In this document: in pieces, positions 9,759-64,000 of the stretch
How positions within the stretch are numbered: position 1 is the stretch's first letter
Layout: each line of letters starts with the position of its first letter
Source of the DNA: Spirosoma sp. 48-14
GTDB lineage: Bacteria > Bacteroidota > Bacteroidia > Cytophagales > Spirosomataceae
Assembly (NCBI RefSeq): GCF_001898575.1
Contig: NZ_MKUD01000010.1
Location: 186,001 to 250,000 of the forward strand
Length of the DNA stretch: 64,000 nt
Direction: 5' to 3'
Position numbers and translations under genes: made by a program
The notes under the pieces: model-generated
Databases searched by the model: none
What the model was told of the DNA's origin: nothing
The model's input: only the letters and a program-made list of their open reading frames with translations

Positions 9759-9795
9759 TAAGTCGCATACCCGTTCATACCCGAACGTACCGGAT

Positions 9796-9846: not shown

Positions 9847-9946
9847 GGAGGGTTCGAAGAAACCCGATGCTTATTTTTTCAATTTGAGGCTGATCTGATT
9901 AACTATTTAGCCCCTATGTACTTATACAGCTATAGAGCGAATAGGC

Positions 9947-10525: not shown

Positions 10526-10682
10526 ATCGGTGGTAAATCCGGTGAATGTCAGAAACTAATGAAATTGGCTAAGAGTAAAAAAAGCTCATTATGTCTTTTT
10601 GACAGTAAGCTTATTACTTAACGCTTTCTATGGTTTTCAGTAGCCGGATTAACCAATCTTTAACTTTCTAACACAGTCAACG

Positions 10683-12341: not shown

Positions 12342-12348
12342 GTTCTGA

Positions 12349-12428
12349 ATAGAACGCAGATTGTCATGATAATTATGATTAATCAAGATCCGTGTTAATC
12401 ATAATTATCATGACAATCTGCGTTCTAT
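12349..12428. repeat. Perfect 34-bp inverted repeat, GATT-periodic family, between convergent genes
   Basis: Arms 12349-12382 and 12395-12428 are fully complementary around a 12-nt loop. The arm begins ATAGAACGCAGATT and then repeats GAT words every 9 nt. It lies between the esterase stop codon and the PepSY gene stop codon and would terminate transcription from both sides. The outer 14 nt match the repeat at 61281-61352 at 12 positions. Confidence 0.9.
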
Positions 12429-12435
12429 CTGTTGT

Positions 12436-18509: not shown

Positions 18510-18515
18510 GATTCA

Positions 18516-18609
18516 AAGAGTGAAAGAGCGAAAGAGTGAAAGAGTGAATAAAGTCGAGCGTATTGAGTGGAGCGTCAGCCCACTCTTTCGCTCTTTCACT
18601 CTTTCGCTT
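18516..18609. repeat. Inverted repeat inside the RND operon (GAAAGAGTGAAAGAG type)
   Basis: Left arm 18516-18547 and right arm 18581-18609 are built from GAGTGAAAGAGCGAAA repeats and pair over about 25 bp. The right arm runs into the last codons of the adaptor gene (stop at 18608). It sits between adaptor and pump genes, where a stem-loop could alter relative expression or mRNA stability. Confidence 0.75.
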
Positions 18610-19663: not shown

Positions 19664-19692
19664 GGCTTTCGGTTGTATTGGCTGCTAACGAC

Positions 19693-47258: not shown

Positions 47259-48083
47259 ATGGCATGCCGTTTAGTAAACTTTAGTTTAAATATAAGTTGT
47301 CGAGTTAGTCTATTTTTTCTCATAGGGCTACTTTCAGTAACAACATGTTTTGCTCAAAACCGTAATGTTCGGGGCATGGTATCGTTTGGAGCTTCATCAG
47401 GGCTAGCTGATGATACGTTGTATCTTGATATAAATCAGGATGTAGCCGGGCAATTATTACCATTCGAAGATTTGGTAAAGATTGCTGTATCGCACTCACC
47501 GTTAATAAAGTACCAGAATGAAGTGGCTAACTCATTGAGTGAGGCACACGAAGTAGCAAAGTTACAGATTCTGCAAAACGTATCAGGCTTTGCCAATTAT
47601 TCAGGGGGTAACCAATTGCTGGTTTCATCAGGAGATTCTAAACTTCCAGGTCAGGGAACAATTGGGCAAATTACGAATGGCTATCGGGTAGGGGTAGATC
47701 TGCGGCTCCCACTTTATGAACTTTTTGGGCGAAAACATCAGGTTCGTCAGGCTTATTCCAATTACAGAGCCGCTGTGGTTCAGAAAGAAACTATCGAATT
47801 GCAATTAAAGCGCGATTTGATTGGGGTCTATCAGGACATGATAACCTCGCAGCAACTGTTGAAAATCCTTCTGATTGATGAACAGGCTTCGTTGACAGCC
47901 CTTCGTGTAGGAGAGGCCGATATTCAGAAAGGAAGAATCACAGCCGATGTGATGGCCGCTACGACCAGTCGGTACGTACAGGCTAAAACAGCATCGGAAC
48001 AGGCAAAGGGCAATTTCATTAAGAATGTACGCTATTTCGAAGCGTTAATGGGTATGCCAATTCAGCGTTTGAAACGTAATTAA
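47259..48083 (+). CDS. Half-size TolC-like outer-membrane protein
   Basis: 274 residues with a signal peptide (SRVSLFFLIGLLSVTTCFAQ, about 14-33). One TolC repeat is present: LLPFEDLVKIAVSHSPLIKY, a strand region RVGVDLRLPLYELFGRKHQV, then a long helix to the C-terminus ending YFEALMGMPI. Full TolC proteins have two repeats (about 430 residues), so this is a single-repeat form that would need to oligomerise differently. It is followed 10 nt later by the GumC/Wzz-like gene. This pairing suggests an outer-membrane component for polysaccharide export rather than drug efflux. AT-rich like its left neighbour. Confidence 0.82.
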   Translation: MACRLVNFSLNISCRVSLFFLIGLLSVTTCFAQNRNVRGMVSFGASSGLADDTLYLDINQDVAGQLLPFEDLVKIAVSHSPLIKYQNEVANSLSEAHEVAKLQILQNVSGFANYSGGNQLLVSSGDSKLPGQGTIGQITNGYRVGVDLRLPLYELFGRKHQVRQAYSNYRAAVVQKETIELQLKRDLIGVYQDMITSQQLLKILLIDEQASLTALRVGEADIQKGRITADVMAATTSRYVQAKTASEQAKGNFIKNVRYFEALMGMPIQRLKRN

Positions 48084-48093: not shown

Positions 48094-50286
48094 ATGACAA
48101 TTGAAGTATTTTTACGCCTGCTGAAACAGCATTTGCTCTGGTTCATTCTTATTCCGGTTGTAGCGGCAGGAACAGCTTTTATTGTTACCCGAAATCAGCC
48201 TAAAGTGTATAAATCACAGGCTACGCTCTATACTGGGTTAGTATCACGCTATTCATTGCTGTCTGATCGTCAGAGCGCTTTTCAGGATCGGTCAGCCAGT
48301 GCCATAGATAATATTCTTACCACACTTAATTCCCGCGAAACATTAATTCAGGTGGCTGTGAGTCTGCTGACCGACCATTTGAGGCTGCAACACCCCGACA
48401 CGCTTGTGTTGCGCGATGCCGGTTTTCAGCAATTACGCAAGGCCATTACGCCGGGTTGGGAAAACTTGTTTTTTATCGCTGCTGATTCCGCACTGTTACG
48501 ACGGACGGTTGATAGTCTGGCCAAATCACAGTACGATAATCCGATCAAAAGCCTATTGATGAAATCGAACTCCTATTATTCGATTCAGCACTTAGGGGAA
48601 AATATCAAAGCAACCCCCCGTAAAAACACAAACGATGTACTCCAGATGGAGTACGAAACGGACGATCCAGGGGTGGCCCAGCGTACCTTACGCTACGCGA
48701 TTGAATTTCTGAACCAGCGTTACGCAACGCTCAAAACATCTGAAACAAACTCGGTAATTGGCTATTACGAATCGAAGCTGGAGAAGGCAAAAGAAAAACT
48801 TGCTCAGGCGGAAACGGCTCTGCGTAATTTCAGTGAGAATCATCAGGTATTGGATTACGATGAAGAGGCCAAAAACGTAGCGGCCTCCCGCGAAGCACTG
48901 CAAACAGAATACAACCAGGAATTGATGCGGAGAAATGCGGCTAAAGCATCACTGGATGCGCTCAATCAGCGTATGGGGCAGCAGGGAAGCATTCGCTCGG
49001 CAAACAATGATCTAAGTGAAAAACAAAAGAAACTGGCCGACGCCGAAAATAAACTAGCCAACGCTAAGGCATACGGACAGTCGAAAGCGACCATCGATCA
49101 GTTGCAGGCAATGGTCAACAAAGCATCGGACGAGCTGAAAATCAGCGCTCAGAAATACGATGCCGCTACTAATTCGACCGATGCGATTCCGGCTCAAACC
49201 ATAGCCAACGATCGACTGGTTAAATCGCTGGAATACGAAGAGTCGTCGGCTCGGCTGGAGCTGTATAAGAAGCGGATGAACGAATACGATGCCAAAACAA
49301 ATGAGTATGGTCCGTTGGGTTCGCAGCTTCGCCAATTGAATCGGGATTTAGCCGTAGCTGAAAAAGAATACTTCGACCTCTTGCAGAATGTAGATCAGTC
49401 GAAAACCCGTCGTCAGGACGTGGCCATTGGGGGAACCCTGGAAATTCTGGATGCTCCCGATTTTCCACTGCTTCCTCAACCTTCCAAACGTTGGCAACTG
49501 GTGGCCATTGGTTTCGGCGTTGGGTTGTTTATTGCGCTGTTGCTGACGGCTCTCCGATTCTGGCTGGATAAGCGAATCAAATCGCCCGAACAGGCCGAAG
49601 AAATGATCGGTATGCCCGTATCGGCCCTATTTCCCACGGTGCGGAAACCTCAGGTTTTCACAAAAGCAACAATGGCTTCCCGGAGTATGTTTGAGCAGCT
49701 TTTCAATGCGATCAACATTGAAGTTTCGCAAAATACTACCAAGCCGTATCCACCCATCATTACGCTATTTAGTATTCGGTCGAAGCAGGGGAAAACCTGG
49801 GTGGCAAACGGCCTGAATCAACTATACGAAAATGCCGATCAACGGATTGCGTACTGTTACCCCCGAGTAACGGGCAAAGAGCAGCGTGCGCAGCAGCGGG
49901 GGATCACCTATTTCCCTTACACGATTCGTCCGGACTTTATGAATGTGACAGGTATTGACTACCTGCTTGATTATACGCAGGGCTTTGAGCCTTCACAGTT
50001 TGATCGTGTTATCCTTGAATTGCCCGCCCTGATTAATAACCAAATTCCAGTTTATCTGCTCAAAAGCAGCGCTTTATCCCTACTTGTAATTGATGCGAAC
50101 AGCCCATGGGCAAGGGCCGAGAAACAACTGCTGAGTATGTACGTACGAGTAACTAATCAACCAATTCTGACGGTATTGAACCGGGTTGAGGGAGATTATG
50201 TCGACGTACCCGGTCGGGCTGATGCTATTCAGCCATTGCCGCCCGCTCAGGAAAACTCGATTTATTCCCAGCGAAATGCGCTGTAG
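48094..50286 (+). CDS. GumC/Wzz-like polysaccharide co-polymerase with decayed tyrosine-kinase domain
   Basis: 730 residues. A Wzz domain starts at the N-terminus with a TM helix (LLWFILIPVVAAGTAFIV, about 13-30). A long coiled coil (about 220-450) spans the periplasm, and a second TM (VAIGFGVGLFIALLLTALRF, about 471-490) leads to a cytoplasmic BY-kinase-like domain. That domain keeps a partial Walker A (SIRSKQGKTWVA, 560-571) but lacks the Walker A' aspartates (RIAYCYPRV where kinases have a DxDxR pattern). Walker B has ELPAL in place of DxPP, and no C-terminal Tyr cluster is evident. It probably regulates chain length or export of an exopolysaccharide without kinase activity. It precedes the NRPS/PKS genes by 178 nt. 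Confidence 0.85.
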   Translation: MTIEVFLRLLKQHLLWFILIPVVAAGTAFIVTRNQPKVYKSQATLYTGLVSRYSLLSDRQSAFQDRSASAIDNILTTLNSRETLIQVAVSLLTDHLRLQHPDTLVLRDAGFQQLRKAITPGWENLFFIAADSALLRRTVDSLAKSQYDNPIKSLLMKSNSYYSIQHLGENIKATPRKNTNDVLQMEYETDDPGVAQRTLRYAIEFLNQRYATLKTSETNSVIGYYESKLEKAKEKLAQAETALRNFSENHQVLDYDEEAKNVAASREALQTEYNQELMRRNAAKASLDALNQRMGQQGSIRSANNDLSEKQKKLADAENKLANAKAYGQSKATIDQLQAMVNKASDELKISAQKYDAATNSTDAIPAQTIANDRLVKSLEYEESSARLELYKKRMNEYDAKTNEYGPLGSQLRQLNRDLAVAEKEYFDLLQNVDQSKTRRQDVAIGGTLEILDAPDFPLLPQPSKRWQLVAIGFGVGLFIALLLTALRFWLDKRIKSPEQAEEMIGMPVSALFPTVRKPQVFTKATMASRSMFEQLFNAINIEVSQNTTKPYPPIITLFSIRSKQGKTWVANGLNQLYENADQRIAYCYPRVTGKEQRAQQRGITYFPYTIRPDFMNVTGIDYLLDYTQGFEPSQFDRVILELPALINNQIPVYLLKSSALSLLVIDANSPWARAEKQLLSMYVRVTNQPILTVLNRVEGDYVDVPGRADAIQPLPPAQENSIYSQRNAL

Positions 50287-50464: not shown

Positions 50465-53400
50465 ATGAGTGCCCATAAGAATAGTATGTTAAGCAGGAGT
50501 TTCCCAACTCCTCAGTTTGTTCATCAACTCGTTGAGCAGGTCGCTCAGGCGAACCAGGAGCGCACAGCCGTTATCTTCGGAAGGGAAACCCTAACGTATC
50601 AACAGCTAAATGAACGTGCCAACGAGGTATGTCAGGCGATCCTGCAGGTTGCTCCGTCGGCTTCGGTTATTGGCATCAGTACGACTCGTAATCTGGATAT
50701 GGTGATCGGTGTGCTGGCTATTTTGAAAGCCGGGAAAGCCTATTTACCACTCGACCCTGCTTACCCTGATGCGCGTTTGCAACAAATTATCAGCGATGCT
50801 CATCTTCAAACTTGTCTGGCGGTAGGTACCGACCACTCCCGATTTGCGAGCTTAGGGCTCCAGGTCATTGCGGACTATACACGTCTGGATGTATCAGCAA
50901 CGGTTCTGCAAGGGGGAATGGCCTATGTACTCTATACATCTGGCTCAACGGGTAAGCCGAAGGGGGTCTGCATGGGGCATACAGCACTCGTGAATCTGCT
51001 CACGTGGCAGGCTAAGCACTCGCAGGCAGGCCCTGGAACGAAGACGCTGCAACTGGCACCTCTCAGCTTTGATGTTTCGTTTCAGGAGATTTTTTCCACT
51101 TTGGCAACGGGTGGTACACTCATTCTGGTTGACGAGTCGCTTCGGCTGGATCTCAACGCACTACTCCAGTTTATTGATGAACAGGGAATCAATCGGTTGT
51201 TTCTGCCATTTGTCGCGCTACAGTACCTGGCCGAATCAGCTGTTCGCACGCAGGTCTTTCCGAAGCAACTCCAGGAGGTGATGACAGCCGGTGAGCAGTT
51301 GAAAATTACCCCGCAGGTCGCTCAGTTTTTTTCGGCCCTACCCACCTGTGTTTTATTCAACCAATATGGCCCTACCGAATGCCATGTGGTTACCCAACTG
51401 ACGCTCTCCGGCGACCCTGCCACGTGGCCCGCATTGCCTGGTATCGGCCATCCGATCGACAATGTACGTCTGTTTGTTGTCGACGATAACCTGACTATTC
51501 TGCCCACGGGTGAAGCTGGCGAATTATGTTTTGGCGGAGACTGTGTTGCTGAAGGTTACCTGAACCAGCCCAGTCTGACGAGTGAAAAATTCATTCAATT
51601 AGATGTGCCCGGTCAGGGATCGGTACGGGTTTATCGTACGGGGGACCTGGGTCGATTACTACCTGATGGTACTATTGATTTTCTGGGGCGTCGCGATGAT
51701 CAGGTGAAAATCCGTGGTCACCGCGTTGAATTGGGCGAAGTAGAAGTGGTGGTTAATCAGATACCGGGTATCAGGCAGGCTGTGGTCGTTGCGCGTGAAG
51801 CTCAGGGCGGACATAAGCAACTGGTTGCCTATCTGGTTTCGGCTAACGGTCAGTTGATCCCGTCGGAGGTTCGGTCGCAGCTTGCGCAAAAACTACCCGA
51901 CTACATGATGCCCTCCGCTTTCGTGTGGCTGGATGAATTGCCGAAAACAACGAGTGGTAAGGTCGATAAAAAGCAATTGCCAGCCCCGGAACGGAAACGG
52001 CCCGAGTTGATGGTGGCATATCGTAAACCTAGGACTGCTCTTGAACGGACCATTGCCCAGGTTTGGGAAGAGCTATTAGAAATTGATCAGTTAGGTTCTG
52101 ATGATAATTTTTTTGAACTGGGCGGTAATTCTCTATTGGCTCAAAAAACGGTAGCGCTTCTGAAGGAACGCCAGTACATACTACCCATCACCAAACTCTA
52201 TCAATTTCCAACAGTTGCCGGTATTGCCAGCTATTTGCAGCCTAAAGAAGAGCCGTCAGTAGCAATTGGCTTGCCTAAAAATCAGCGCCAAAACGCGGCT
52301 CCATCAATGCACGATTCGGACATTGCTATTATTGGCATGGCGGGGCGCTTTCCGGGAGCGTGTACGATTGGTGAACTTTGGGAGGTCCTCAAAGCGGGTA
52401 AAGAAACGACACGATTTTTTACGGACGAAGAATTGGACCCATCGATTCCGGCAAGTCTGAAAGCTGATCCACTTTACGTAATGGCACGGGGTGTGATTGA
52501 CGGAGCCGATCAGTTCGATGCAACCTTCTTTGGCTTATCGCCCAGGGTAGCTCAGCTCATGGACCCACAGCAACGAATCTTTCTGGAGATTGCCTGGGAA
52601 ACGCTGGAGCAAACGGGCTATCTGCCTCACCATTACGATGGTCGGGTCGGGGTATTTGCAGGTTGTGGAAATAACACCTATTACCAGAAAAATATACCAG
52701 GGCATACAGATCTGATCGATCAGGTGGGTGCGTTTCAGGTGATGACCCTGAACGAGAAAGATTATATAGCTTCCCGAACCGCTTACCAGCTCAATCTGAA
52801 AGGCCCGGCTGTGAGTGTGTATTCTGCCTGTTCAACTTCATTGCTGGCGATTACGCAGGCTGTGCAGAGCATCCGAAATGGTCAGTGCGAAGTAGCTTTG
52901 GCTGGGGGAGCTAGTATTACATCACCGATCAGTAGTGGGCACCTCTATCAGGAAGGCGCTATGTTAAGCCAGGATGGGCATTGTCGATCGTTCGATGCCG
53001 ATGCACAGGGCACCGTGTTTAGTGATGGGGCGGGGGTTGTATTACTGAAAAGCCGGGAAGCCGCTCTTCGCGATGGCGACACAATTTACGCGGTCATTAA
53101 AGGGGTTGGCGTGAATAATGACGGGGGAGGCAAAGGAAGCTTTACGGCCCCAAGCTCTGAAGGTCAGGCCGGCGCGATCATTATGGCGATAGCCGATGCA
53201 GCTATCGACCCGGCAACCATCAGTTATGTGGAAGCGCATGGAACGGCTACACCCTTGGGTGATCCAATCGAAATCGAAGGGTTGACACAGGCCTTTGGTG
53301 AGCAAGCTGATCGGCAGTTTTGTGCGATTGGCTCCATCAAAAGTAACATGGGGCATCTGACCCAAGCGGCTGGTGTGGCCGGACTGATCAAAACGACACT

Positions 53401-56400
53401 TGCGCTGTATCATAAGCAACTCCCGGCATCAATCAATTTTACCCGACCCAATCCCGCTATCGACTTTGCCAGTACGCCATTTTTTGTAAATACGCAATTG
53501 GTCGACTGGAAACCCGAAGGCGATTTGCCTCGTCGGGCCGGGGTGAGTTCATTTGGTGTTGGGGGAACCAATGTGCATGTCATATTGGAAGAATCTGGCG
53601 TTGAAAGACCCCAATCCGCTGGAGGTCGGCCGGTACAGTTGATAAGTTGGTCAGCTAAATCGTCCAGCAGCCTGGAGGCATATACCCGAAAATTGACACA
53701 GGCCGTCGAACAAGTAGAGGATACTGCATTAGCTGATCTGGCCTTTACCTTGCAGACGACTCGGGCCAGCTTTGGTCATCGACGCTTTATCGTTGCAGCA
53801 ACAGGGGCCGAACTACAGCAGAAATTGCAGACCGAGCAGGCTAAGTCTTCCCTTTCAAAAGCCGTCCACCGACCTGACGAAGTGGTTTTTCTGTTTCCTG
53901 GGCAGGGGTCACAATACCTCAATATGGGACGATGGTTGTATGAATCGGAAGCTGTATTCCGGGAGGCTATCGATACCTGCGCGAACTTGCTGGCCCCCTA
54001 TCTTGACCTTGATATTCGTCGGGTGATGTACCCTGAATCGATGGATATGGAGGCTGAGCAACGGCTTCGAAATACGCGTTATACGCAACCTGCCCTGTTT
54101 GTGACCGAATATGCACTAGCCCAATTATGGATGAGTTGGGGGATCGAACCGTCAGTATTTTGTGGGCATAGTATCGGTGAGTTTGTAGCCGCCCATTTAT
54201 CAGGTATCTTTTCGTTGGCAGACGCGCTCATGCTTATTGCTATGCGTGGACGTATGGTGAGCGAACGCCCACGTGGTAGTATGTTATCGGTTCGTAAACC
54301 TGCTGGCCTAATTGCCGGGATGATGCCCGAAACGATTTCCATGGCCGCCATAAATAGCCATACACTGTGTGTGGTAGCAGGGCCAGATGAAGATATCGCT
54401 GATTTTGCCCGGTTATTGGACGAACAGGAAATTCCCAATCAGCCACTGGCAACGAGTCATGCGTTTCATTCCAGTATGATGGAGCCCATTGTGGGTGAAT
54501 TTGGCAGCGTCGTAGGGACGATTTCGCTAAATCGGCCTAAAAAACCGATTGTATCGACGGTAAGTGGGACTTGGCTTACGGATGCTCAGGCTACTGATCC
54601 TATGTATTGGGCGAATCATCTGCGTGCGACCGTACAATTTGCCGATGCGCTGGATACGATAATAACCCTAGATAATCCAATACTGTTTGAAGTCGGCCCT
54701 GGGCATGTAACGGCGACGCTGGCCCGGCAGCAGGTTGGTAAAAAGACAATTCCAGTGCTGGCCGGATTAGCCAATCTGCCCGAACAGCCAGCAGCCTTCC
54801 AGTCATTACTGACTACTCTCGGGCAATTATACCAAAATGGCTTGGAGCCTGACTGGAAGGCCTTTTATAAAGACCAGAAACGAGTAAAGATTAGTGCGCC
54901 CAGCTACGCGTTTGATAAAAAGCACTGCTGGCTCGATCCGGTGGAAATCCGGCCGGAAAATCCCTCTTTATATACTAATAAACATGTCGGTTTAGTTGGT
55001 AATGTGCCTGTTGATCAGCGGCCTGTTGCAGATTTGCCCGATCGGTCGACCGTTGTATTGCCGATAACCACACCAAAAACTATGAGAAAAGATACATTGA
55101 TCAGCCGGATCAATCAACTGCTGGAAGAGGCATCCGGTATTGAAATGGATGGCGTTACGCCCGACACCAGTTTTCTGGAAATCGGCTTGGATTCTCTGTT
55201 GCTGACCCAGGTGGCACTAACCCTGAAAAAAGAATTTGGCTTGCCCATTACCTTCCGTCAGTTAACCAGTACGTATACGTCTCCTGAACTGTTGGCCGAC
55301 TTTATTGACCAGCAATTGCCTCCCGAACCACAGCCTGTTGCGCCGACTCCAGTTGCTATTCCGGTATCGCCTGTCACGGTGAATGGTCACTATGGGACTC
55401 AGCAGCCCAACCCTGCACTGGATATTATTGCCCAGCAACTGCAACTGCTTGCCAAACAGATTGAACTACTACAAGCAGGAAATACACCAGCCCCTCAACC
55501 TGTTGTTGCGCCAACGCCCCAGCCAATGCCGGTTAATGGAAACGTGGCAAAGAATGGAAGTTCAATTACGGACGCCCCTGACCTGACACCAGAGGAAAAA
55601 GCTGAACTGAAGAAACCATTCGGCGCAACGGCCCGAATTGAACGGCAGGCTTCGGAACTTACTCCGAAACAGCGGCAGTTTCTGGCGCAGTTTACGGAAC
55701 AGTATACCCTCAAAACGGCCAAAAGTAAAGCCTATGCCCAGCAAAATCGGGCACATATGGCCGACCCACGTGTGGTCACTGGTTTTCGGCCACTTACCAA
55801 AGAAATTGTTTATCCATTAGTGGTTAACCGATCGGCGGGTAGCAGAGTATGGGATATTGATGGGAATGAGTACATCGATGCGTTGAACGGGTTCGGCTCG
55901 AATATGTTCGGCTACCAGCCTGACTGGCTTAAACAGGTGTTGCACGATCAGATCGAAGCCGGTTTTGAAGTCGGCCCTCAGCATGAACTGGCAGGTGAGG
56001 TAACCCGGCTTATTTGTGAACTGACCAAAACGGATCGCTCGGCGCTTTGTAATACTGGCTCCGAAGCGGTCCTGGGGGCCATGCGTATAGCCCGAACGGT
56101 AACAGGGCGATCGCTCATCGTTGCTTTTTCGGGATCTTACCACGGTATTGTTGATGAAGTTCTGGTGAGAGGCACCAAAAAACTGAAGTCATTCCCGGCT
56201 GCTCCGGGCATCATGCCCGAAGCGGTCCAGAATATGCTCATTCTGGAGTATGGGACCGACGAGAGTTTGAAAATCATTCGTGAGCGTGCCCATGAGTTAG
56301 CGGCTGTACTGGTTGAGCCGGTTCAAAGCCGTCGGCCCGAGTTTGTACCGATTGAATTTCTGAAACAGGTACGGAGTATTACGGAGAAATCCGGTACCGC

Positions 56401-57169
56401 CCTGATTTTCGATGAAGTCATTACCGGTTTTCGGGCCCATCCGGGTGGCACTCAGGCCCTTTTCGGTATTAAAGCCGATCTGGCTACGTATGGTAAAGTA
56501 GTCGGTGCTGGCTTACCGATTGGCGTAATTGCTGGTAAGCGAGCCTTTATGGATGCGCTGGATGGCGGGTTCTGGCAGTATGGTGATGCGTCGGTGCCGG
56601 AGGTTGGGGTTACCTATTTTGCCGGAACCTTTGTTCGCCATCCGTTGGCTTTAGCGGCTGCCAAAGCATCATTAGCGTACATGAAAGCAGAAGGCCCGAT
56701 GTTGCATCAGCAGTTGACTCGTAAAACAACCCGGCTAGCCGACGAACTGAATGCTGTTCTGGAAAGCTGGAAACTTCCCCTTTTTGTTGTTAACTTTGGT
56801 TCATTATGGAAAGTTAAGTTTAAAGAAGAGGTAGCATACGGTGAATTGTTGTTTACATTGATGCGTGATAAAGGCATTCACATTTGGGATGGCTTTCCCT
56901 GTTTTCTAACAGAAGCGCATACAGAGCAGGAAATCGATGCGATCATTAAATGTTTTACCGATAGTATACAGGAATTGATCGAGGTCGGCATTTTTAAAGC
57001 CGATCGAATAAGCACAATCAGTTCAGAAACAGTTGGGATAACTCATAACAGAAATACACCACCGGCACCTGGTGCCAGACTAGGGCGGGATCGGCAGGGT
57101 AATCCTGCCTGGTTTATTCCTAATCCAGATCAGCCTGGGAAATACCTACAGGTTGAATTAAATCAATGA
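50465..57169 (+). CDS. Hybrid NRPS-PKS: A-PCP-KS-AT-ACP-aminotransferase
   Basis: 2234 residues. Domains in order: adenylation (about 20-510; YTSGSTGKPKG near 158, SGKVDKKQL at its end), PCP (GGNSLLA, Ser556), KS (about 617-1045; SACSTSLL, Cys789; EAHGTATPLGD; GSIKSNMGHL), AT (about 1138-1450; FPGQGSQ, GHSIGE Ser1236, AFHSSM indicating malonyl-CoA), ACP (GLDSLLLTQ, Ser1577), a Pro/Gln-rich linker (about 1605-1700) and a class III PLP aminotransferase (about 1720-2180; Lys2011 in TYGKVVGAGLP). No KR, DH or C domain is present. The missing C domain makes this the loading and first extension module. The layout KS-AT-ACP-AMT is that of MycA/McyE-type beta-amino acid modules. The C-terminal tail (PGARLGRDRQGNPAW) is the linker that normally leads into a C domain. 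Confidence 0.95.
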   Translation: MSAHKNSMLSRSFPTPQFVHQLVEQVAQANQERTAVIFGRETLTYQQLNERANEVCQAILQVAPSASVIGISTTRNLDMVIGVLAILKAGKAYLPLDPAYPDARLQQIISDAHLQTCLAVGTDHSRFASLGLQVIADYTRLDVSATVLQGGMAYVLYTSGSTGKPKGVCMGHTALVNLLTWQAKHSQAGPGTKTLQLAPLSFDVSFQEIFSTLATGGTLILVDESLRLDLNALLQFIDEQGINRLFLPFVALQYLAESAVRTQVFPKQLQEVMTAGEQLKITPQVAQFFSALPTCVLFNQYGPTECHVVTQLTLSGDPATWPALPGIGHPIDNVRLFVVDDNLTILPTGEAGELCFGGDCVAEGYLNQPSLTSEKFIQLDVPGQGSVRVYRTGDLGRLLPDGTIDFLGRRDDQVKIRGHRVELGEVEVVVNQIPGIRQAVVVAREAQGGHKQLVAYLVSANGQLIPSEVRSQLAQKLPDYMMPSAFVWLDELPKTTSGKVDKKQLPAPERKRPELMVAYRKPRTALERTIAQVWEELLEIDQLGSDDNFFELGGNSLLAQKTVALLKERQYILPITKLYQFPTVAGIASYLQPKEEPSVAIGLPKNQRQNAAPSMHDSDIAIIGMAGRFPGACTIGELWEVLKAGKETTRFFTDEELDPSIPASLKADPLYVMARGVIDGADQFDATFFGLSPRVAQLMDPQQRIFLEIAWETLEQTGYLPHHYDGRVGVFAGCGNNTYYQKNIPGHTDLIDQVGAFQVMTLNEKDYIASRTAYQLNLKGPAVSVYSACSTSLLAITQAVQSIRNGQCEVALAGGASITSPISSGHLYQEGAMLSQDGHCRSFDADAQGTVFSDGAGVVLLKSREAALRDGDTIYAVIKGVGVNNDGGGKGSFTAPSSEGQAGAIIMAIADAAIDPATISYVEAHGTATPLGDPIEIEGLTQAFGEQADRQFCAIGSIKSNMGHLTQAAGVAGLIKTTLALYHKQLPASINFTRPNPAIDFASTPFFVNTQLVDWKPEGDLPRRAGVSSFGVGGTNVHVILEESGVERPQSAGGRPVQLISWSAKSSSSLEAYTRKLTQAVEQVEDTALADLAFTLQTTRASFGHRRFIVAATGAELQQKLQTEQAKSSLSKAVHRPDEVVFLFPGQGSQYLNMGRWLYESEAVFREAIDTCANLLAPYLDLDIRRVMYPESMDMEAEQRLRNTRYTQPALFVTEYALAQLWMSWGIEPSVFCGHSIGEFVAAHLSGIFSLADALMLIAMRGRMVSERPRGSMLSVRKPAGLIAGMMPETISMAAINSHTLCVVAGPDEDIADFARLLDEQEIPNQPLATSHAFHSSMMEPIVGEFGSVVGTISLNRPKKPIVSTVSGTWLTDAQATDPMYWANHLRATVQFADALDTIITLDNPILFEVGPGHVTATLARQQVGKKTIPVLAGLANLPEQPAAFQSLLTTLGQLYQNGLEPDWKAFYKDQKRVKISAPSYAFDKKHCWLDPVEIRPENPSLYTNKHVGLVGNVPVDQRPVADLPDRSTVVLPITTPKTMRKDTLISRINQLLEEASGIEMDGVTPDTSFLEIGLDSLLLTQVALTLKKEFGLPITFRQLTSTYTSPELLADFIDQQLPPEPQPVAPTPVAIPVSPVTVNGHYGTQQPNPALDIIAQQLQLLAKQIELLQAGNTPAPQPVVAPTPQPMPVNGNVAKNGSSITDAPDLTPEEKAELKKPFGATARIERQASELTPKQRQFLAQFTEQYTLKTAKSKAYAQQNRAHMADPRVVTGFRPLTKEIVYPLVVNRSAGSRVWDIDGNEYIDALNGFGSNMFGYQPDWLKQVLHDQIEAGFEVGPQHELAGEVTRLICELTKTDRSALCNTGSEAVLGAMRIARTVTGRSLIVAFSGSYHGIVDEVLVRGTKKLKSFPAAPGIMPEAVQNMLILEYGTDESLKIIRERAHELAAVLVEPVQSRRPEFVPIEFLKQVRSITEKSGTALIFDEVITGFRAHPGGTQALFGIKADLATYGKVVGAGLPIGVIAGKRAFMDALDGGFWQYGDASVPEVGVTYFAGTFVRHPLALAAAKASLAYMKAEGPMLHQQLTRKTTRLADELNAVLESWKLPLFVVNFGSLWKVKFKEEVAYGELLFTLMRDKGIHIWDGFPCFLTEAHTEQEIDAIIKCFTDSIQELIEVGIFKADRISTISSETVGITHNRNTPPAPGARLGRDRQGNPAWFIPNPDQPGKYLQVELNQ

Positions 57170-57172
57170 CGG

Positions 57173-60100
57173 ATGGCGGAAAGCATTGCAAATGTAAACC
57201 TGATTGAAGTTGATTTTAACCCATTTGAGGGGCCTCAAATCGTGAGCCTGGCTCCGGCAACGGAGCCACAGATCGAAATATGGGCGGCCTGTAAACTCGG
57301 TGGCGACGATGCCAGTCGAGCTTTCAATGAGTCGATTTCGTTGCGGTTTCATGGGTTACTGGATCGACTTGCTTTCGAGAAAGCCTGGCAAGCGCTGGTG
57401 CGTCGTCATGAAGCACTCCATTCGGCGTTTAGCGCTGATGGGCGTCAGATGTGCATTTTCGACGAAGTACCTATTCCCCTGGATTACCTGGACAGTTCCG
57501 CTAAATCGAAGGTTGAGCAGGAACAGATTATTGCAGACTATGTCCAACAGGATGCGATCTATGTATTCGATCTGCTGAACGGCCCTCTGATTAAGGTGTG
57601 CCTGATCAAATTGTCGGATACAGATCATCATTTTACTCTGACAGGACATCATATTGTTTGTGATGGCTGGTCGTTAGGTATTTTACTTCAGGATCTGAGT
57701 GCGCTCTATTCAGCCTACGCCCGGCACCGCAATCCCACTTTACCTGAGGCCCCTGCCTATAGCCAGTACGCGCTTGAACAACAGCAGTTTGAGCAAAGTG
57801 AAGTCTATCGGCAGATCGAAAAATTCTGGCTCAATCAGTATAATGGTGCAATCCCCGTCCTCGAGTTGCCAACCGACTTCGCCCGGCCATCGTTACGGAC
57901 GTATTCCATTGCCCGACGCGACCATCTGTTGAGCGACGCACTTGCCAGTGCTGTGAAAAAAATGGGTGCCAGGGCAGGGGCTAGTTTTGTTACCACATTA
58001 ATGGCTGCTTTCGAGGTGTTTCTGCACCGGGTAACGGGTCAGGATGATATTGTGGTAGGCTTACCTACATCTGGGCAGTCAGCAACTGGCTATCTGGGAT
58101 TGGTAGGCCATTGTGTCAATTTACTGCCACTCCGCAGCTTTCCCAGGCCTGAACTAAGCTTCCTGGAGTTTTTACAGCAACGCAAGGAGGGCATACTCGA
58201 TGCATACGAACACCAGCGGCTGACATTTGGCAGTCTGCTGAAAAAGCTACCCATTGTCCGTGACCCTGCCCGGGTCCCTCTGGTTCCAGTCATCTTCAAC
58301 GTCGATATGGGGCTTGACAATGGGGTAGATTTTCATGGACTCGATTATCAGTTTATCAGCAATCCGAGAGAATTTGGGGCTGTTGACCTCTTTCTGAACA
58401 TAAGTGATGCCGCAACCGGCAAATCGTCTCTCGTATTTGAATGGTCCTACAATACCCAACTGTTCAAAGAAGCGACTATCGATCGGATGATGGCCGAGTT
58501 TGAACGGCTTCTGAAAGCTATTGTTGAGAATCCATCCATTCAGATTGAAGATATTCTGCTGGCCGATGGGGACGATCAGAGCAGAAAACTGGCCACCTGG
58601 AACGATACGGCGGCAAACTACCCAAGGACGGCTTCGTTACATTCGTTACTGGCACAAACGGCTAAGGAATTTGCAGACAAACCAGCGCTGGTATTTACCC
58701 AGTCAACGGAACGCCAAACGTTCACGTATCAGGAACTTCATGAACGGGCTAATCAGCTAGCGCAGGCCATTCAAAAACAGTGTTTAGGAACAACAGTCAA
58801 TGGGAGTGCGCCCGTAGTGGGGGTCGTTCTGGATCGTACGCCCGATCTGGTTATTACTTTACTAGCTGTTCTGAAAGCCGGTGCCGCCTACGTGCCCATC
58901 GACCCTGAATATCCGCATGACCGTATTGCGTTTATGCTAGCGGATTCGTCAGCTAGCTTGCTGATTACATCGAAGAAATACCATTCGGCCGGTCATACAA
59001 CGTACCCGACTTCGGGCCAGCCAGCGAACCAGACGAAGGTTGTGTTGCTGGAAACCTTACTGGATGAACTGGACCAGTATTCCAAAGAGGCTCCAGCGGT
59101 TGAGGTAAATGGTAACGATCTGGCCTATATTCTCTATACTTCAGGTTCGACCGGCAAACCCAAAGGCGTTCTTATTGAGCACCATAATCTGGTCAATTTA
59201 CTGTACAGCATGATAAGCTGGCCAGGTATCACTAAGGACGATAAACTGCTGGCTGTCACGACGGTTTCGTTCGACATTGCCGGGCTTGAGTTATACCTGC
59301 CCATTCTGGTGGGGGCAACGCTGGTATTGGCCGATTCTGAAACAACAAAAGATGGCCGAGCTCTTCTAGAGACTGTTTCGTCTTTTGATATTAGCCTCAT
59401 ACAGGCTACCCCCATCACCTACAAAATGATGCTCGCGGCTGGTTGGGAGGAGCGGTTGCCGTTGAAGATTCTGTGCTGCGGAGAGCCTATGTCGAAAGAT
59501 CTGGCCCAGAAACTAACGGCTCGTTGTGGATCGCTCTGGAATATGTATGGCCCAACCGAAACGACCATTTATTCGACCGGAAAGCAGATTTTAGCCAGCG
59601 ACGAGATTATTACGATTGGGCGGCCTATTCAGAACACCCAGGTCTATATTCTGGACGAACACCTGAATCGGTTGCCTGAAGGGAGCGTAGGAGAAATTTA
59701 CATTGCTGGCGATGGAGTTGCCCGAGGCTATCTGAACCGTCCTGAGCTGACGCGAGAAAAATTCGTTCCGAATCCGTTCAGTACGTCGAAAAAAAGTACC
59801 ATGTACCGAACGGGCGATTTAGGTAAGTTTATGCCCGATGGCGAAATCCATTGCCTGGGGCGTATCGACCAGCAGGTGAAGGTACGCGGCTACCGGATTG
59901 AGTTGGGCGAAATAGAGCATGCTCTGGTAACGCAGGAAGGGGTAAGTGAAGCTGTGGTTGTTGCTCGTGAAGATCGCCCTGGCGACCAACGATTGATTGC
60001 TTATCTGGTGACCACCCCCCCATTGAGCGAAGGCGCGTTCAGGAATCAGATTCTGATTTGGCGACGGCAGTTGCAGGAAAATCTGCCATCTTATATGGTC

Positions 60101-61270
60101 CCGACAGATTTTGTGAGCCTGGCTCAGTTGCCTATTACGCCAAACGGTAAAATCGACAAAAATGCACTGCCTAAGCCTGCTTCCATGCTGGCTGTGGAAC
60201 ATAGAACGCACACGGCTCCATCGACCGAAACGGAAAAGCTGATTGCGGTAATCTGGCAGGAAGCGTTGATGCTGGATCAGATTGATATTGATACCGACTT
60301 TTTTGAACTGGGTGGGCACTCGATGATTGCTGTTCAGGTAATGACCCAACTGGAAAAGGAAACCGGAAAGCGGCTTCCCTTATCTATTCTGCTGACCTAT
60401 CCGACGGTTCGAAAACTGGCGCAACTGTTACAAACAAACGAAAAGCCAACAACCTGGACATCGCTGGTGCCCATCCGGCCAGAAGGCAATAAAGACCCTC
60501 TGTATATTATTCATGGAATTGGTCTAAATCTGTTGAATTTCAGTAGCTTGATAAGCTATCTGGATCCAGAGCAGCCTATTTACGGGCTCCAGGCAAAGGG
60601 ACTAGATGGCAAAGATGAGCCGCTCGATAAGATGGAAGACATTGCCGCTTTCTATCTGAGCGAAGTGCTGGAACAAAATCCCAATGGTCCGTATGCAATT
60701 GCTGGCTATTCGTTTGGTGGCTATGTGGCGCTGGAGATGGCCCGGCAATTGAAAGCGATGGGGAAAGAGGTGAAAATGCTAGCTATGTTCGACACCAATG
60801 CACAGGAGTCAGATATGAATCGCTCGATGGGCGACTGGCTAATGCGAAAAGTACTCCGCCAGTTCCCGAAATTAATCTGGTTCACCAGATCATTGATCCA
60901 GAAACCTATTCAGACGCTCAAATACCAGCAGGGGTATGTTGAATGGAAATTCGATTCATTACTGAAAGCAATGGGTTTGCGTGAGGAGCCAGAACCAGAA
61001 GTAGGATTGGAACATCTGAATAAAATCATCGAAAAGCATGAGTACGCGTTTTCGCATTATACCATGAAGCCCTACGACGGTATTATTGATCTTTTTAAGG
61101 CTCAGGTTCGCCTTTACTTTGTCGATGATAGTAAGTTTCTGGGCTGGAAAAAATATGCTAAAAAAGGAGTGCGCGTGCACAGTGTGCCGGGTGATCATCA
61201 ACTGATGCTCCTGCCGCCAAACGACAAAGCCTTTGCTGAAGCCCTGCAACGGGCACTTGATCAGGCATAA
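57173..61270 (+). CDS. NRPS termination module: C-A-PCP-TE
   Basis: 1365 residues. Domains: condensation (about 10-460; active site GHHIVCDGWS, His160 as catalytic base), adenylation (about 480-980; YTSGSTGKPKG near 656, NGKIDKNAL near its end), PCP (GGHSMIA, Ser1050) and type I thioesterase (about 1085-1365; GYSFGGYVAL, Ser1180; GDHQLML, His). The start codon is 3 nt after the preceding stop codon, so the genes are co-translated and the assembly line continues from the aminotransferase to this C domain. It adds one amino acid and releases the product by hydrolysis or cyclisation. No tailoring, MbtH, phosphopantetheinyl transferase or exporter gene is adjacent. Confidence 0.95.
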   Translation: MAESIANVNLIEVDFNPFEGPQIVSLAPATEPQIEIWAACKLGGDDASRAFNESISLRFHGLLDRLAFEKAWQALVRRHEALHSAFSADGRQMCIFDEVPIPLDYLDSSAKSKVEQEQIIADYVQQDAIYVFDLLNGPLIKVCLIKLSDTDHHFTLTGHHIVCDGWSLGILLQDLSALYSAYARHRNPTLPEAPAYSQYALEQQQFEQSEVYRQIEKFWLNQYNGAIPVLELPTDFARPSLRTYSIARRDHLLSDALASAVKKMGARAGASFVTTLMAAFEVFLHRVTGQDDIVVGLPTSGQSATGYLGLVGHCVNLLPLRSFPRPELSFLEFLQQRKEGILDAYEHQRLTFGSLLKKLPIVRDPARVPLVPVIFNVDMGLDNGVDFHGLDYQFISNPREFGAVDLFLNISDAATGKSSLVFEWSYNTQLFKEATIDRMMAEFERLLKAIVENPSIQIEDILLADGDDQSRKLATWNDTAANYPRTASLHSLLAQTAKEFADKPALVFTQSTERQTFTYQELHERANQLAQAIQKQCLGTTVNGSAPVVGVVLDRTPDLVITLLAVLKAGAAYVPIDPEYPHDRIAFMLADSSASLLITSKKYHSAGHTTYPTSGQPANQTKVVLLETLLDELDQYSKEAPAVEVNGNDLAYILYTSGSTGKPKGVLIEHHNLVNLLYSMISWPGITKDDKLLAVTTVSFDIAGLELYLPILVGATLVLADSETTKDGRALLETVSSFDISLIQATPITYKMMLAAGWEERLPLKILCCGEPMSKDLAQKLTARCGSLWNMYGPTETTIYSTGKQILASDEIITIGRPIQNTQVYILDEHLNRLPEGSVGEIYIAGDGVARGYLNRPELTREKFVPNPFSTSKKSTMYRTGDLGKFMPDGEIHCLGRIDQQVKVRGYRIELGEIEHALVTQEGVSEAVVVAREDRPGDQRLIAYLVTTPPLSEGAFRNQILIWRRQLQENLPSYMVPTDFVSLAQLPITPNGKIDKNALPKPASMLAVEHRTHTAPSTETEKLIAVIWQEALMLDQIDIDTDFFELGGHSMIAVQVMTQLEKETGKRLPLSILLTYPTVRKLAQLLQTNEKPTTWTSLVPIRPEGNKDPLYIIHGIGLNLLNFSSLISYLDPEQPIYGLQAKGLDGKDEPLDKMEDIAAFYLSEVLEQNPNGPYAIAGYSFGGYVALEMARQLKAMGKEVKMLAMFDTNAQESDMNRSMGDWLMRKVLRQFPKLIWFTRSLIQKPIQTLKYQQGYVEWKFDSLLKAMGLREEPEPEVGLEHLNKIIEKHEYAFSHYTMKPYDGIIDLFKAQVRLYFVDDSKFLGWKKYAKKGVRVHSVPGDHQLMLLPPNDKAFAEALQRALDQA

Positions 61271-61280: not shown

Positions 61281-61352
61281 AATAGAACACGGATTTTCAG
61301 GATTCCTATGATTTACACTGATCATAGGAATCCTGAAAATCCGTGTTCTATT
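61281..61352. repeat. Perfect 32-bp inverted repeat, GATT-periodic family, between convergent genes
   Basis: Arms 61281-61312 and 61321-61352 are fully complementary around an 8-nt loop. The arm starts AATAGAACACGGATT, with GATT words every 9 nt. It lies between the NRPS and GT2-GH stop codons and should terminate both. Confidence 0.9.
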
Positions 61353-61368: not shown

Positions 61369-63909
61369 TTACTGACTTCGTTTTAACTCGTCAGCCTGTT
61401 GTGGATTAAGAACTAAGCCGCGTACTTCAGGATATCGCTCCGTGATAATAGTCAGCGCATTATGTAGCCATTCCTGCTCCTTCATGCCCGATGTATTGGT
61501 GCCACAATGCGTAACCAAAATAGGCTTTTGGCGGATGTTGTAATCTATATGTAGCCGGATTGTATTGTGCATCAACTGATACAGGGCTGCAAAGGAATGG
61601 ATCTGGCTGTCGTCGTTCGAAAGCGGCTTATTGGTAATGTTGAGCCCTATCCAGTCAATCGAATCACCGCCAGGGTAGTAATCAACAACCGTAGATGGCT
61701 GCGTAGGACACCACACCCATACGATGTTGGTCAATTGCTGCTGTCGACAAAATGTTACCAGGTATTGCCAGGCCTTCTCATATAGTTTGAGGGTTGCTTC
61801 TTGCCGGGTGCCCCACTGGTGGGTAGTATCATCAAATTCAGGGGCGAAACAAATGAGTAGTGGTTGATTATAGCGTTTCAGGTTATTCGTAAACGTTAGT
61901 AGTTGGTCATTGTATGTACCCTGGCAGATGCGTTGCAGAAATGATTGCAAAATCGTCTCTGAGTTTTCTGAAAGACTTGTAAAAGTTGGTTCCAGGTAAA
62001 GCAATGGCAATTGACGGGATGCTATTGACAAGGTCGGCCAGTTTAATGCATGGTCGCCAGTAGTGGACCAGGTCAGGTGTTGAGGAACAATAACTTTGTC
62101 GGGCACAGGAATCGATTTATGAACATTGTTCCTGGCTGGGTCCAGCCCATAATAAAACGATTGGGTAGTAGCGTATCGGAGATCGAACGGAAGCCGGGCT
62201 GTTTTTTTACGACTGGTATACGCTACCAATCCGGTTGTGGCAATCAGTAAGACGACAAATAAGGGGATGGCTGAAAAGCGAAGCCACCGATAAAGGCCAT
62301 ACCGGATATGCCAGAACGCAATCCGTAATGGCCAGAAGACAGGTCGTTGAAATGAGATTCGGGGGGCTATCCACGTTTTCATACGGGCTAGCCACACTTC
62401 CTGACCGATCAGCACATTCAGTGACAGAATAACCACGTTGAGTAATCCGAAGCCAATCATGAGCTGGGAGTATATGTTACTGACAGCAAATCGGCCGTAA
62501 TGATAAATGCTGTAACCAATAGCGCCCAGCGTCAGAATAATCATCAGCAAATTAGGGAGGCACAGCACTAGATTGTTCCGTGGCTGGTCGCGCTTGGGTG
62601 TTGGCAGATAAGGGACTTCAACGCGGAAAATGGTGTAAATCAGTCCTAAAACGTACACCCACCAGGTACCACTGCTTAAAATACCTCCGAAGATATGAAA
62701 GCCTGCTTCGTGTTTTTCGATCAACCATCGTTGCGAATACTGTCGAATCAGAAAAGCCGTCAGCAAAAGAGGCAGATAGGCCGTGGCGAATAATAGAAGA
62801 TCCACGTGAACTGGAAGCCGCATCGTTACCAGCGAAATGATCGGTATCAGTAAATCAAGCAGTTGTACAATGCCCAGGAGGTAATACAACGGCATTGTCA
62901 GGTAGTGAAGGCGTTGCCGCCACGACAACTGACCAATGATTCGTGGATAGGTAGTTACCAGCAGTTCAAACGTTCCCCTCGACCACTTAAGCTGTTGCTT
63001 GAAATAAGCCGACAACGTGCCCGGCACCAGACCATAGGAGAGGGGCATGGGAACATAGGCCGATTGCCACCCTTTGGCGTGTAGAAGCATCGCCGTGTGC
63101 ATATCTTCGGAGAGGCCGGGAGCATGCCCACCGATGGTGTCGAGCGCGTCTCTTCGAAAGGTACAGTTCGCCCCAATAGCCTGGGCTGTTCCATAATTCC
63201 CCATACAGGTCATCATGGGGCCATAAAACGTATACGTCTGTTCAGCGGCCCCGTAGGCAACCAAACTCTCCTTGTGGTTATAATACCCTTGTACACACTG
63301 AACAAAGCCAATAGCCGGATCGTCGAAGTGGGGCAAAACGTGGTCCAGGAAATCAGGGGCTGGTACGTGGTCGGGGTCAATCACCAGACAAATTTCGCCC
63401 GTGGCCTGCTGAAGCGCATGGTTGATATTACCTGCTTTAGCGTCTTTTTTGTCAGTGCGTGTAACATGCTGTACACCCAATTCTGCACAAACTCGTCGTA
63501 GGTAAGGGTCATTGGCTTCGTCGCAGAGGTATGTTGTATGCGGATAGGACATCGCCTGAATGGCTCGCAGGGAATTGATGACCATGTCGTGCGGCTCGCC
63601 GGGGCAGTAGGTTGTTAACACATCGACTCGCCATGTCCGGGTAGAGGGAGGTACAACCAACGGTTTCACCTGCCAGTAATGGTACCATTCGTGGAGCAGT
63701 CGGAAGAGCTTGAAAAAGACCGACACGGTTAACATGCCAAATAACCAGCCATAGCCCCGGTTTCCCGGCTGAAGATATACGGCTAAAAAGGCGGTAATAA
63801 AGAAAAGACCGGCAATGATCAAAATCCGAATAGGCTGCCTGTCGCTTGGCTTATAGGCAAAGTTATAGGCAGCGTTCGGCGAACGGTGAAGGTGAGTAAG
63901 CCAGTTCAT
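61369..63909 (-). CDS. GT2 glycosyltransferase fused to GH26-like domain with altered nucleophile
   Basis: 846 residues from ATG 63909; a GTG at 63936 adds 9 residues. Two N-terminal TM helices precede a GT2 domain with DVLTTYCPGE, DEANDPYLR, VIDPDHVPAPDF (DxD), GLSEDMHTAM (ED) and QQLKWSRGT in the QxxRW position. Several TM helices (about 345-555) follow, then another TM and a periplasmic region. Residues about 610-846 resemble a GH26-type TIM barrel: LLICFAPEFDD carries the acid/base Glu691, but the nucleophile site reads PILVTHCGTN, so His801 replaces Glu. The 110-residue spacing matches that between the catalytic Glu pair of GH26 enzymes. It probably makes a beta-glycan and binds rather than cleaves it. 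Confidence 0.82.
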   Translation of the reverse strand: MNWLTHLHRSPNAAYNFAYKPSDRQPIRILIIAGLFFITAFLAVYLQPGNRGYGWLFGMLTVSVFFKLFRLLHEWYHYWQVKPLVVPPSTRTWRVDVLTTYCPGEPHDMVINSLRAIQAMSYPHTTYLCDEANDPYLRRVCAELGVQHVTRTDKKDAKAGNINHALQQATGEICLVIDPDHVPAPDFLDHVLPHFDDPAIGFVQCVQGYYNHKESLVAYGAAEQTYTFYGPMMTCMGNYGTAQAIGANCTFRRDALDTIGGHAPGLSEDMHTAMLLHAKGWQSAYVPMPLSYGLVPGTLSAYFKQQLKWSRGTFELLVTTYPRIIGQLSWRQRLHYLTMPLYYLLGIVQLLDLLIPIISLVTMRLPVHVDLLLFATAYLPLLLTAFLIRQYSQRWLIEKHEAGFHIFGGILSSGTWWVYVLGLIYTIFRVEVPYLPTPKRDQPRNNLVLCLPNLLMIILTLGAIGYSIYHYGRFAVSNIYSQLMIGFGLLNVVILSLNVLIGQEVWLARMKTWIAPRISFQRPVFWPLRIAFWHIRYGLYRWLRFSAIPLFVVLLIATTGLVAYTSRKKTARLPFDLRYATTQSFYYGLDPARNNVHKSIPVPDKVIVPQHLTWSTTGDHALNWPTLSIASRQLPLLYLEPTFTSLSENSETILQSFLQRICQGTYNDQLLTFTNNLKRYNQPLLICFAPEFDDTTHQWGTRQEATLKLYEKAWQYLVTFCRQQQLTNIVWVWCPTQPSTVVDYYPGGDSIDWIGLNITNKPLSNDDSQIHSFAALYQLMHNTIRLHIDYNIRQKPILVTHCGTNTSGMKEQEWLHNALTIITERYPEVRGLVLNPQQADELKRSQ

Positions 63910-64000
63910 ATGGGTTAGATTCGAACGGTGCCGCACGAATTTGGTTTTGTCAACGGTCTGGCAACCAGGTAAATAGTAAACCGTGATTTTGTATTCGTAT

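Follow-up and report, generated by a model that had tools for sequence, protein, structure and literature searches.

MycA of the mycosubtilin synthetase starts from a fatty acid, extends it in a module composed of ketosynthase (KS), acyltransferase (AT), acyl carrier protein (ACP), and aminotransferase (AMT) domains, and continues into a lipopeptide. McyE of the microcystin/nodularin synthetases follows a KS-AT-(CM)-ACP-AMT logic, with an aryl polyketide starter, a methyltransferase, and a larger peptide. Here, we describe two giant enzymes, N1 and N2, of a soil bacterium of the genus Spirosoma. They are encoded in a 64,000-nucleotide stretch of DNA (referred to below as the window) from Spirosoma sp. 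48-14, positions 186,001 to 250,000 of contig NZ_MKUD01000010.1. Like MycA, N1 combines malonyl extension with a class-III aminotransferase that follows in the same protein, and it shares the module logic of McyE, but its predicted starter is an amino acid held on a pair of adenylation (A) and peptidyl carrier protein (PCP) domains, and the predicted product ends after one more residue. Extension of an amino acid with malonate is also the principle of statine-type lines, in which an A-PCP pair precedes KS-AT-KR. The line of Nostoc FACHB-892 (L119), which matches N1 residues 13–1492, has the arrangement KS-AT-KR-PP, with KR in the place of the AMT, and would give a hydroxyl. Cephabacin may be a precedent for the combination of an amino acid, acetate, and an amine.

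A second group of related systems comprises Dlt and Alm, in which a separate ligase and carrier and a membrane acyltransferase add one simple amino acid. The amino acids for these surface polymers, in teichoic acid D-alanylation (Dlt) and in lipid A glycylation of V. cholerae (Alm), are charged by A domains resembling those of non-ribosomal peptide synthetases (NRPS) (PMC11253843, in excerpt). An A domain charging an amino acid for a cell-surface polymer is also the purpose proposed here for N1/N2. However, instead of a stand-alone ligase with a separate carrier, N1/N2 have A and PCP domains fused to condensation (C) and thioesterase (TE) domains or to KS-AT-ACP-AMT, and no MBOAT-type transferase lies beside them, those of the host genome being on other contigs. 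Lacking these two defining features, N1/N2 would resemble Dlt/Alm at most in their working.

Wzx/Wzy-dependent exopolysaccharide (EPS) loci share the sugar transferase, glycosyltransferases, Wzx, Wzy, Wzz-like protein, and OEP found around N1/N2, whereas an NRPS/polyketide synthase (PKS) line inside such a locus is a feature of N1/N2 for which our literature search found no description. The same search, which did not extend to MIBiG/antiSMASH, revealed no characterised cluster with the N1/N2 domain order. Literature on Spirosoma clusters, on vicinal diamines or diamino acids in combination with an AMT, and on A or TE domains in combination with EPS also yielded no description of an N1/N2-like system. 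In excerpts of three related papers, Bacteroidetes are listed among the phyla with such pyridoxal phosphate (PLP) domains and Spirosoma is not mentioned (PMC3870968), NRPS and PKS clusters of Bacteroidota are treated in general (PMC13211072), and no NRPS appears among Mucilaginibacter EPS genes (PMC6260751). We read N1 and N2 as one assembly line of a Wzx/Wzy-type EPS locus, most likely supplying an aminoacyl unit to the polysaccharide, and give this reading even chances.

The two genes are located on the same strand and are separated by 3 bases. Their features are as follows:

50465..57169, + strand: N1, A-PCP-KS-AT-ACP-AMT hybrid synthetase, 2234 aa (Pfam, translation, conserved active sites)
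50534..51961, + strand: adenylation domain of N1 (A1), code DVQFMAQVVK, proline-like (Pfam, code alignment)
52316..53794, + strand: ketosynthase of N1 with C-terminal extension, Cys789, His925, His964 (Pfam, active-site alignment)
53885..54742, + strand: acyltransferase of N1, GHSIGE and HAFHS (Pfam, translation, active-site alignment)
55106..55306, + strand: acyl carrier protein of N1, Ser1577 (Pfam, active-site alignment)
55811..56884, + strand: class-III aminotransferase domain of N1, Lys2011, MycA type (Pfam, solved-structure matches, active-site alignment)
57173..61270, + strand: N2, C-A-PCP-TE synthetase, 1365 aa (Pfam, translation, active sites)
58652..60151, + strand: adenylation domain of N2 (A2), code DILQLCMIYK, glycine-like (Pfam, code alignment)
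60497..61207, + strand: thioesterase of N2, Ser1180, His1342 (Pfam, solved-structure matches, active-site alignment)

Pfam analysis of both open reading frames (ORFs) confirmed the domain order given in the initial annotation, A-PCP-KS-AT-ACP-AMT followed by C-A-PCP-TE. Namely, N1 contains AMP-binding (residues 24–499), PP-binding (two stretches), ketoacyl-synt (618–992), Acyl_transf_1 (1141–1426), PP-binding (1548–1614), and Aminotran_3 (1783–2140), while N2 contains Condensation (28–466), AMP-binding (494–993), PP-binding (1024–1086), and Thioesterase (1109–1345). The Pfam matches of the two proteins at E 0.001 include no KR, DH, ER, MT, or second condensation-type domain, which agrees with the earlier statement that KR, DH, and an upstream C domain are lacking. 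The catalytic residues, also claimed there, were all present in the window copy as far as checked and are conserved among relatives.

Among solved structures, the MycA aminotransferase domains 6kfu and 6kfm come closest to the N1 AMT (E about 1e-127), and ordinary type-I TEs, namely those of the C-A-PCP-TE module 4zxh and of EntF, come closest to the N2 TE. Conservation was scored in 59 deduplicated N1 proteins, drawn from 70 loci after removal of L050 (below the score cut), five proteins shorter than 1700 aa, and five duplicates. A D235, A K517, the PCP Ser, the KS Cys-His-His, and the ACP Ser are kept in all 59 proteins; the AT Ser and AT His in 58 (L100 has no AT); the Phe of AFHS in 57; and the AMT Lys in 58. 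The exception is L093, which has no AMT, so that the Asp scored at the Lys position is meaningless. In this locus, a 1738-aa N1 relative without the aminotransferase domain (7986-13199) is followed by a 1370-aa N2. All 47 N2 proteins compared retain each of the six residues checked.

An N2-sized gene adjoins N1 in 47 of the 59 loci. The two genes are fused in L068, L069, and L100; L085 is cut by a contig end; N2 is located elsewhere in L058, L061, and L062; and none is present in L070, L072, L073, and L074. In L067, N2 was missed by the ORF caller, which takes the longest frame, drops ORFs overlapping a longer one by more than 60 bases, and also missed C3 (see below) in L049. N1 and N2 being a single ORF in L068 (3955 aa) and L069 (3962 aa) supports the order N1 then N2. 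The best named match of N1 is that of S. panaciterrae (86% identity), and another congener shares 94%. In comparisons with two congeners, N1 shows ratios of non-synonymous to synonymous substitution rates (dN/dS) of 0.083 and 0.078, and N2 shows ratios of 0.063 and 0.047; in comparisons with two further relatives, silent sites were saturated.

The substrates were predicted from A-domain codes and motifs. Codes, motifs, and AMT structure matches all speak for the alpha-amino acid starter (Asp235), malonyl extension, and MycA-type amination that had been postulated earlier. The signs of a fatty or aryl starter of the MycA/McyE kind are missing: the predicted starter module is an A-PCP pair with D235 in 59 of 59 proteins and amino-acid-like codes. 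GHSIGE and HAFHS of the N1 AT presumably indicate the malonyl type, and the KS-AT-ACP module is followed, within one protein, by a class-III AMT with its catalytic Lys. The A1 code, DVQFMAQVVK, contains Val236 and Gln239 and differs from DVQFIAHVVK at positions 299 and 322; position 331 falls into an alignment gap, and the V there was taken by eye from the translation. DVQFIAHVXK and DVQYIAHVTK are tabulated as Pro codes (PMC2866473, in excerpt), and Val236 plus Gln239 mark most Pro codes (PMC12283262, in excerpt). Homologues from family f24 display the codes DVQFIAHVVK or DVQFIAHVIK. Judged by its code, the A1 starter is most likely proline. The A2 code, DILQLCMIYK, equals the Gly code DILQLGMIWK at 8 of 10 positions, with C301 and Y331 differing, and suggests a glycine-like second residue. 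We considered C301 as a link to the Cys present in the DltA and AlmE pockets (PMC11253843, in excerpt) and rejected it, as C301 fits the EPS context poorly; residue 301 is G in Segetibacter and in the A-PCP-TE genes described below, and C in L068, L069, and L088. No match to MbtH was found in the Spirosoma host genome.

The predicted unit is 3-amino-3-(pyrrolidin-2-yl)propanoyl-Gly, a 3,4-diamino compound (vicinal diamine) with a mass of 215.127 by arithmetic; one of the two nitrogens would be in the ring because the starter is predicted to be proline. The 3,4-diaminoacyl-amino acid product of the initial annotation is contradicted by nothing in the sequence, its modules are conserved across genera, and it can now be sharpened to a Pro-like starter and a Gly-like second residue.

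The assembly line is a family occurring across several Bacteroidota families and not a one-off cluster. Within the family of the host, 68 of 222 genomes match N1 at E 1e-100, and near-full-length N1 was counted by hand at 63 places in 52 genomes (54–100% identity, two with one internal stop); the remainder comprises partial or broken matches and hits to ordinary NRPS/PKS. Across a sample of the whole class, N1 was matched at 1e-250 in 38 of 395 genomes, the weakest rows being partial matches to other hybrids, and the stretches of 20 of these 38 genomes were examined. The N1/N2 copy numbers are lower bounds, with the best two candidates per genome scored in the large searches. Named carriers are Spirosoma, Rudanella, Mucilaginibacter, Segetibacter, Echinicola, and one metagenome-assembled genome of Halobacteriovoraceae.

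The Pro-like starter code (DVQF-A-V pattern) is present in 29 of the 59 N1 proteins, while the AMT is kept in 58. The code DATKVGEVGK, which we take to be Asn-like, was found in L064-L066 and L093. DFWNIGMVHK, a threonine-type code (PMC12283262, in excerpt), was identified in L070, L072, L073, L074, L136, and a broken second copy, L035. The first five of these loci have a GNAT-family gene (C24, assigned by Pfam in L073 only) directly upstream of N1 and no adjoining N2, and this line shows no visible release domain. L035 (G000 contig C13, 6006-13371) is the second N1-type copy of the host genome; it has the Thr-type A code and a GNAT gene before it, and its frame is broken into three ORFs. Some N2 relatives (L053, L063) contain a methyltransferase after the A domain.

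The following genes precede N1 in the window:

45848..47041, + strand: C1, GT2-type glycosyltransferase, first gene of the run upstream of N1 (Pfam Glyco_tranf_2_3; in 33 of 69 loci, duplicates included)
47259..48083, + strand: C2, OEP-type outer-membrane protein (Pfam OEP; in 32 of 69 loci)
48094..50286, + strand: C3, Wzz-like polysaccharide chain-length determinant (NCBIfam, Pfam, synteny)

C2 ends 10 bp before C3. The latter matches the NCBIfam XrtA-system chain-length determinant at E 5e-19, well short of the equivalog cut-off, and its match to GNVR likewise stays under the threshold set by Pfam. Past the window end, the host genome (L003, L004) encodes Wzx, a CHU_C protein, and a phosphopantetheinyl transferase (PPTase), all assigned by Pfam. 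Next, past four unrelated genes, come glycosyltransferases (Pfam). Behind these, BLAST identified homologues of three further families, Wzy (C23), bacterial sugar transferase (C18), and response regulator (C41). Genes for a sugar transferase, Wzx, Wzy, a Wzz-like protein, and glycosyltransferases are linked to N1/N2 in the host genome, in genus g10, in Segetibacter, and in genome G335, and about half of the N1 relatives do not display this set. N1/N2 are embedded in a Wzx/Wzy-type EPS locus, the linkage being given by synteny.

The coordinates of C3, N1, and N2 were compared over the 222 genomes by a hand tally, with six genomes read out in detail. C3 homologues of at least 58% identity were present in 37 genomes (28 of 36 genus members, four of genus g29, and five of g10), and in all 37 the same-strand neighbour, within about 600 bases, is N1 (32) or N2 (5). 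Homologues at 57% identity or less are not beside N1/N2 by coordinates. Among the 28 genus genomes, G197, G200, G201, and G213 have a broken frame in C3 or N1. In g10, the order is sugar transferase - GT2 - OEP - Wzz - N2, with N1 displaced: it lies about 5 kb off and divergent in G110 and G113, and on another contig in G111, where the N1 found is of the Thr type, and G112. In G114, N1 and N2 share a locus but are separated by about 23 kb containing Wzy, Wzx, PPTase, and glycosyltransferases. N2 remains the neighbour of C3 where N1 has moved.

Outside the host's family, ten of the same EPS families surround N1-N2 in Segetibacter (Chitinophagaceae; L087, L091). In G335 (family f42, genus g121, Mucilaginibacter-type), N1-N2-PPTase stands at the head of a series of EPS genes, all on one strand, in the order response regulator, sugar transferase, OEP, Wzc-like, Wzy, Wzx, GT1, GT2, A-PCP-TE, GT2, GT2. 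Weaker signs come from L142/L160 and L146/L159, with two linked GT2 genes, and from L156, with a sugar transferase; the other stretches of the 20 class genomes examined contained none of these EPS families beside N1. A PPTase of family C5 occurs in the stretch of 17 of the 59 loci.

The A-PCP-TE gene of this G335 run is one of a group of stand-alone genes resembling N2 without its C domain, which were found at 10 places; the domains were assigned by Pfam in L157 and L094, and by length and similarity in the other eight. Six are located in EPS runs (G335:C15, G424, G452, G500, G521, and, on a 5-kb contig, G503), in five f42 genomes and one f47 genome, and have the codes DILQLGMIWK, DILQLGMVWK, or DIVQFGMIYK, which are Gly or Gly-like. 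Since such a protein alone can only load one amino acid and pass it on, transfer to the polysaccharide is hinted at most strongly by the presence of A(Gly)-PCP-TE genes among those for glycosyltransferases. Four loci of genus g121 (L163, L164, L165, L166) are compact EPS runs in which GT2 is followed by A-PCP-TE and a gene of 1871-1872 aa.

Because the N1/N2 genes lie inside a gene set for a secreted polysaccharide, the unit may be meant for this polymer and not for use as a free antibiotic or signal. Three roles had been offered at first: in the context of an EPS locus the modifying group fits best, and a signal or a siderophore-like chelator is disfavoured as first choice. In the mechanism we envisage, N1 would activate a proline-like amino acid and extend it with malonate, and its AMT would convert the beta-ketone to an amine, giving 3-amino-3-(pyrrolidin-2-yl)propanoyl-ACP. 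N2 would condense this product with a glycine-like residue, and the TE would release it. The TE or a sugar acyltransferase could then attach the aminoacyl unit to the lipid-linked repeat unit, at an amino sugar or a hydroxyl; we infer that this transfer is covalent. Attachment would take place in the cytoplasm, before Wzx flips the repeat unit, and the polymer would gain positive charge. In its widest form, put forward more tentatively, the proposal is that a PKS-NRPS line making a vicinal-diamine unit decorates a secreted polysaccharide in several Bacteroidota families, with the TE or a partner as transferase and A(Gly)-PCP-TE as the minimal form, and so represents an assembly-line counterpart of Dlt/Alm.

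The EPS label, carried by 29 of 59 rows, requires 3 changes on the N1 tree versus a shuffled mean of 20.1, and none of 500 shuffles was as low. With just 3 changes needed, the EPS link is mostly inherited within one clade, Segetibacter apart. The argument for function comes from the same EPS families accompanying N1/N2 through different gene orders and bacterial families, and from N2 staying with C3 after N1 leaves. In a background control, 13 EPS families had no match among 168 genes in 232 kb of comparison stretches versus 3 to 10 matches in each of 13 test stretches.

Several observations weigh against a role in EPS modification. The background control is weak because the test stretches were picked as EPS-linked, the families were defined from N1 loci, and several comparison stretches (Thr-type loci, L167-L169) had already been seen without EPS families. 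Within Spirosoma, the EPS linkage mostly reflects a single arrangement passed on by descent, and 37 of 37 therefore does not stand for 37 independent events. A close C3 is missing in G212, which retains N2 and a broken N1, and in G206 (82% complete), where N2 was matched but a close N1 is missing as well. Less than two EPS families occur in the examined stretch of 30 of the 59 deduplicated N1 loci, among them Mucilaginibacter loci, Echinicola, the Thr-code copies beside the GNAT gene, and G220. The f11 and f24 stretches show none of these EPS families, several Mucilaginibacter N1-N2 pairs are located near a fucosidase gene instead of EPS genes, and four of the 10 A-PCP-TE genes (L094, L167, L168, L169) are not beside these families. 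No dedicated aminoacyl-sugar transferase was identified at the N1/N2 locus, where no search for an AlmG-type transferase was made, and the host genome's MBOAT matches, three in number, are all on other contigs. The A-domain codes are predictions, and that of A1 has its two deviations from DVQFIAHVVK. Family C26 was considered as the dedicated aminoacyltransferase and rejected: Pfam was silent, and by eye it is glycosyltransferase-like.

With about half of the relatives outside EPS loci, the main rival explanation is that the product is a free metabolite, namely a Pro-beta-amino-Gly dipeptide in linear form or cyclised by the TE, and is secreted as a signal, chelator, or antibiotic. The location in an EPS locus would then reflect shared regulation or capture in an ancestor. 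This explanation, possible although on balance doubtful, draws on N1-N2(-PPTase) occurring without these EPS genes in the examined Mucilaginibacter, Echinicola, and G220 stretches, on the relationship of the TE to the ordinary type-I enzymes 4zxh and EntF, and on the OEP gene, which is readable as part of an exporter. However, the genes annotated immediately next to N1/N2 in the window include, apart from OEP, no exporter or resistance gene; at least three bacterial families, with different gene orders, show the link to these same EPS families; and N2 keeps beside C3 when N1 has moved.

Alternatively, amination may not be the main outcome. Beta-ketoacyl chains derived from amino acids can cyclise spontaneously, and a beta-keto-gamma-amino intermediate might cyclise to a tetramic-acid-like compound or pyrrolinone, or the AMT might be inactive. 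The relative without an AMT (L093) is in line with this idea, which is nevertheless improbable: 58 of 59 N1 proteins have an AMT, all 58 with the PLP lysine, the window AMT matches MycA AMT structures at 1e-127, and the Pfam matches include no reductase-type terminal domain. The frame-broken L035 on another host contig and the broken copies or frames in G197, G212, and G213 might suggest a natural-product cluster that is decaying or roaming and has no stable role. This is very improbable given the intact window copy, its dN/dS of 0.05-0.08, and N1 adjoining C3 in 28 of 36 genus genomes (hand tally).

Two further features follow N2 in the window:

61282..61351, no strand: inverted repeat of 31 bp (loop of 8 bases), lying between N2 and the GT2/GH26 gene convergent with it (by eye)
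61369..63999, - strand: GT2-type glycosyltransferase with a C-terminal GH26-like part, convergent with N2 (Pfam, ORF list)

The inverted repeat is terminator-like and perhaps acts as a two-way terminator. The GT2/GH26 gene has a GTG start codon at 63936, and its frame is open to the window end; it is cellulose-synthase-like, and its family is present in only 6 of 69 loci. No Bacteroidota-type promoter motif was found in the gap between C3 and N1. A second Wzz-like gene (G000:C10:300088-302250), 46% identical, lies about 64 kb beyond C3. Just before it, in L161, are homologues of GT11 and Wzx and an Acyl_transf_3 gene; these genes may form another EPS locus, or the present one may extend this far. 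An RND efflux set (AcrB-type pump, membrane fusion protein, OEP) occupies 15378-21024 on the minus strand, about 29 kb from N1/N2, and a homologue of the AcrB-type gene is also located near N1 in L084.

If the proposed role is true, NRPS/PKS machinery would have a structural function in these bacteria, installing unusual cationic groups on bacterial EPS. This would explain that the cluster is kept by most sampled species of the genus (28 of 36) instead of being strain-specific, and it would change genome-mining priorities, as the product should be looked for in the polymer rather than in the extract. The minimal three-domain A-PCP-TE protein and the naturally varying starter codes (Pro, Thr, Asn-like), combined with an amination module that hardly changes, make this a testable system. 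If the polysaccharide link were proved, such a use of an assembly line would be categorically new.

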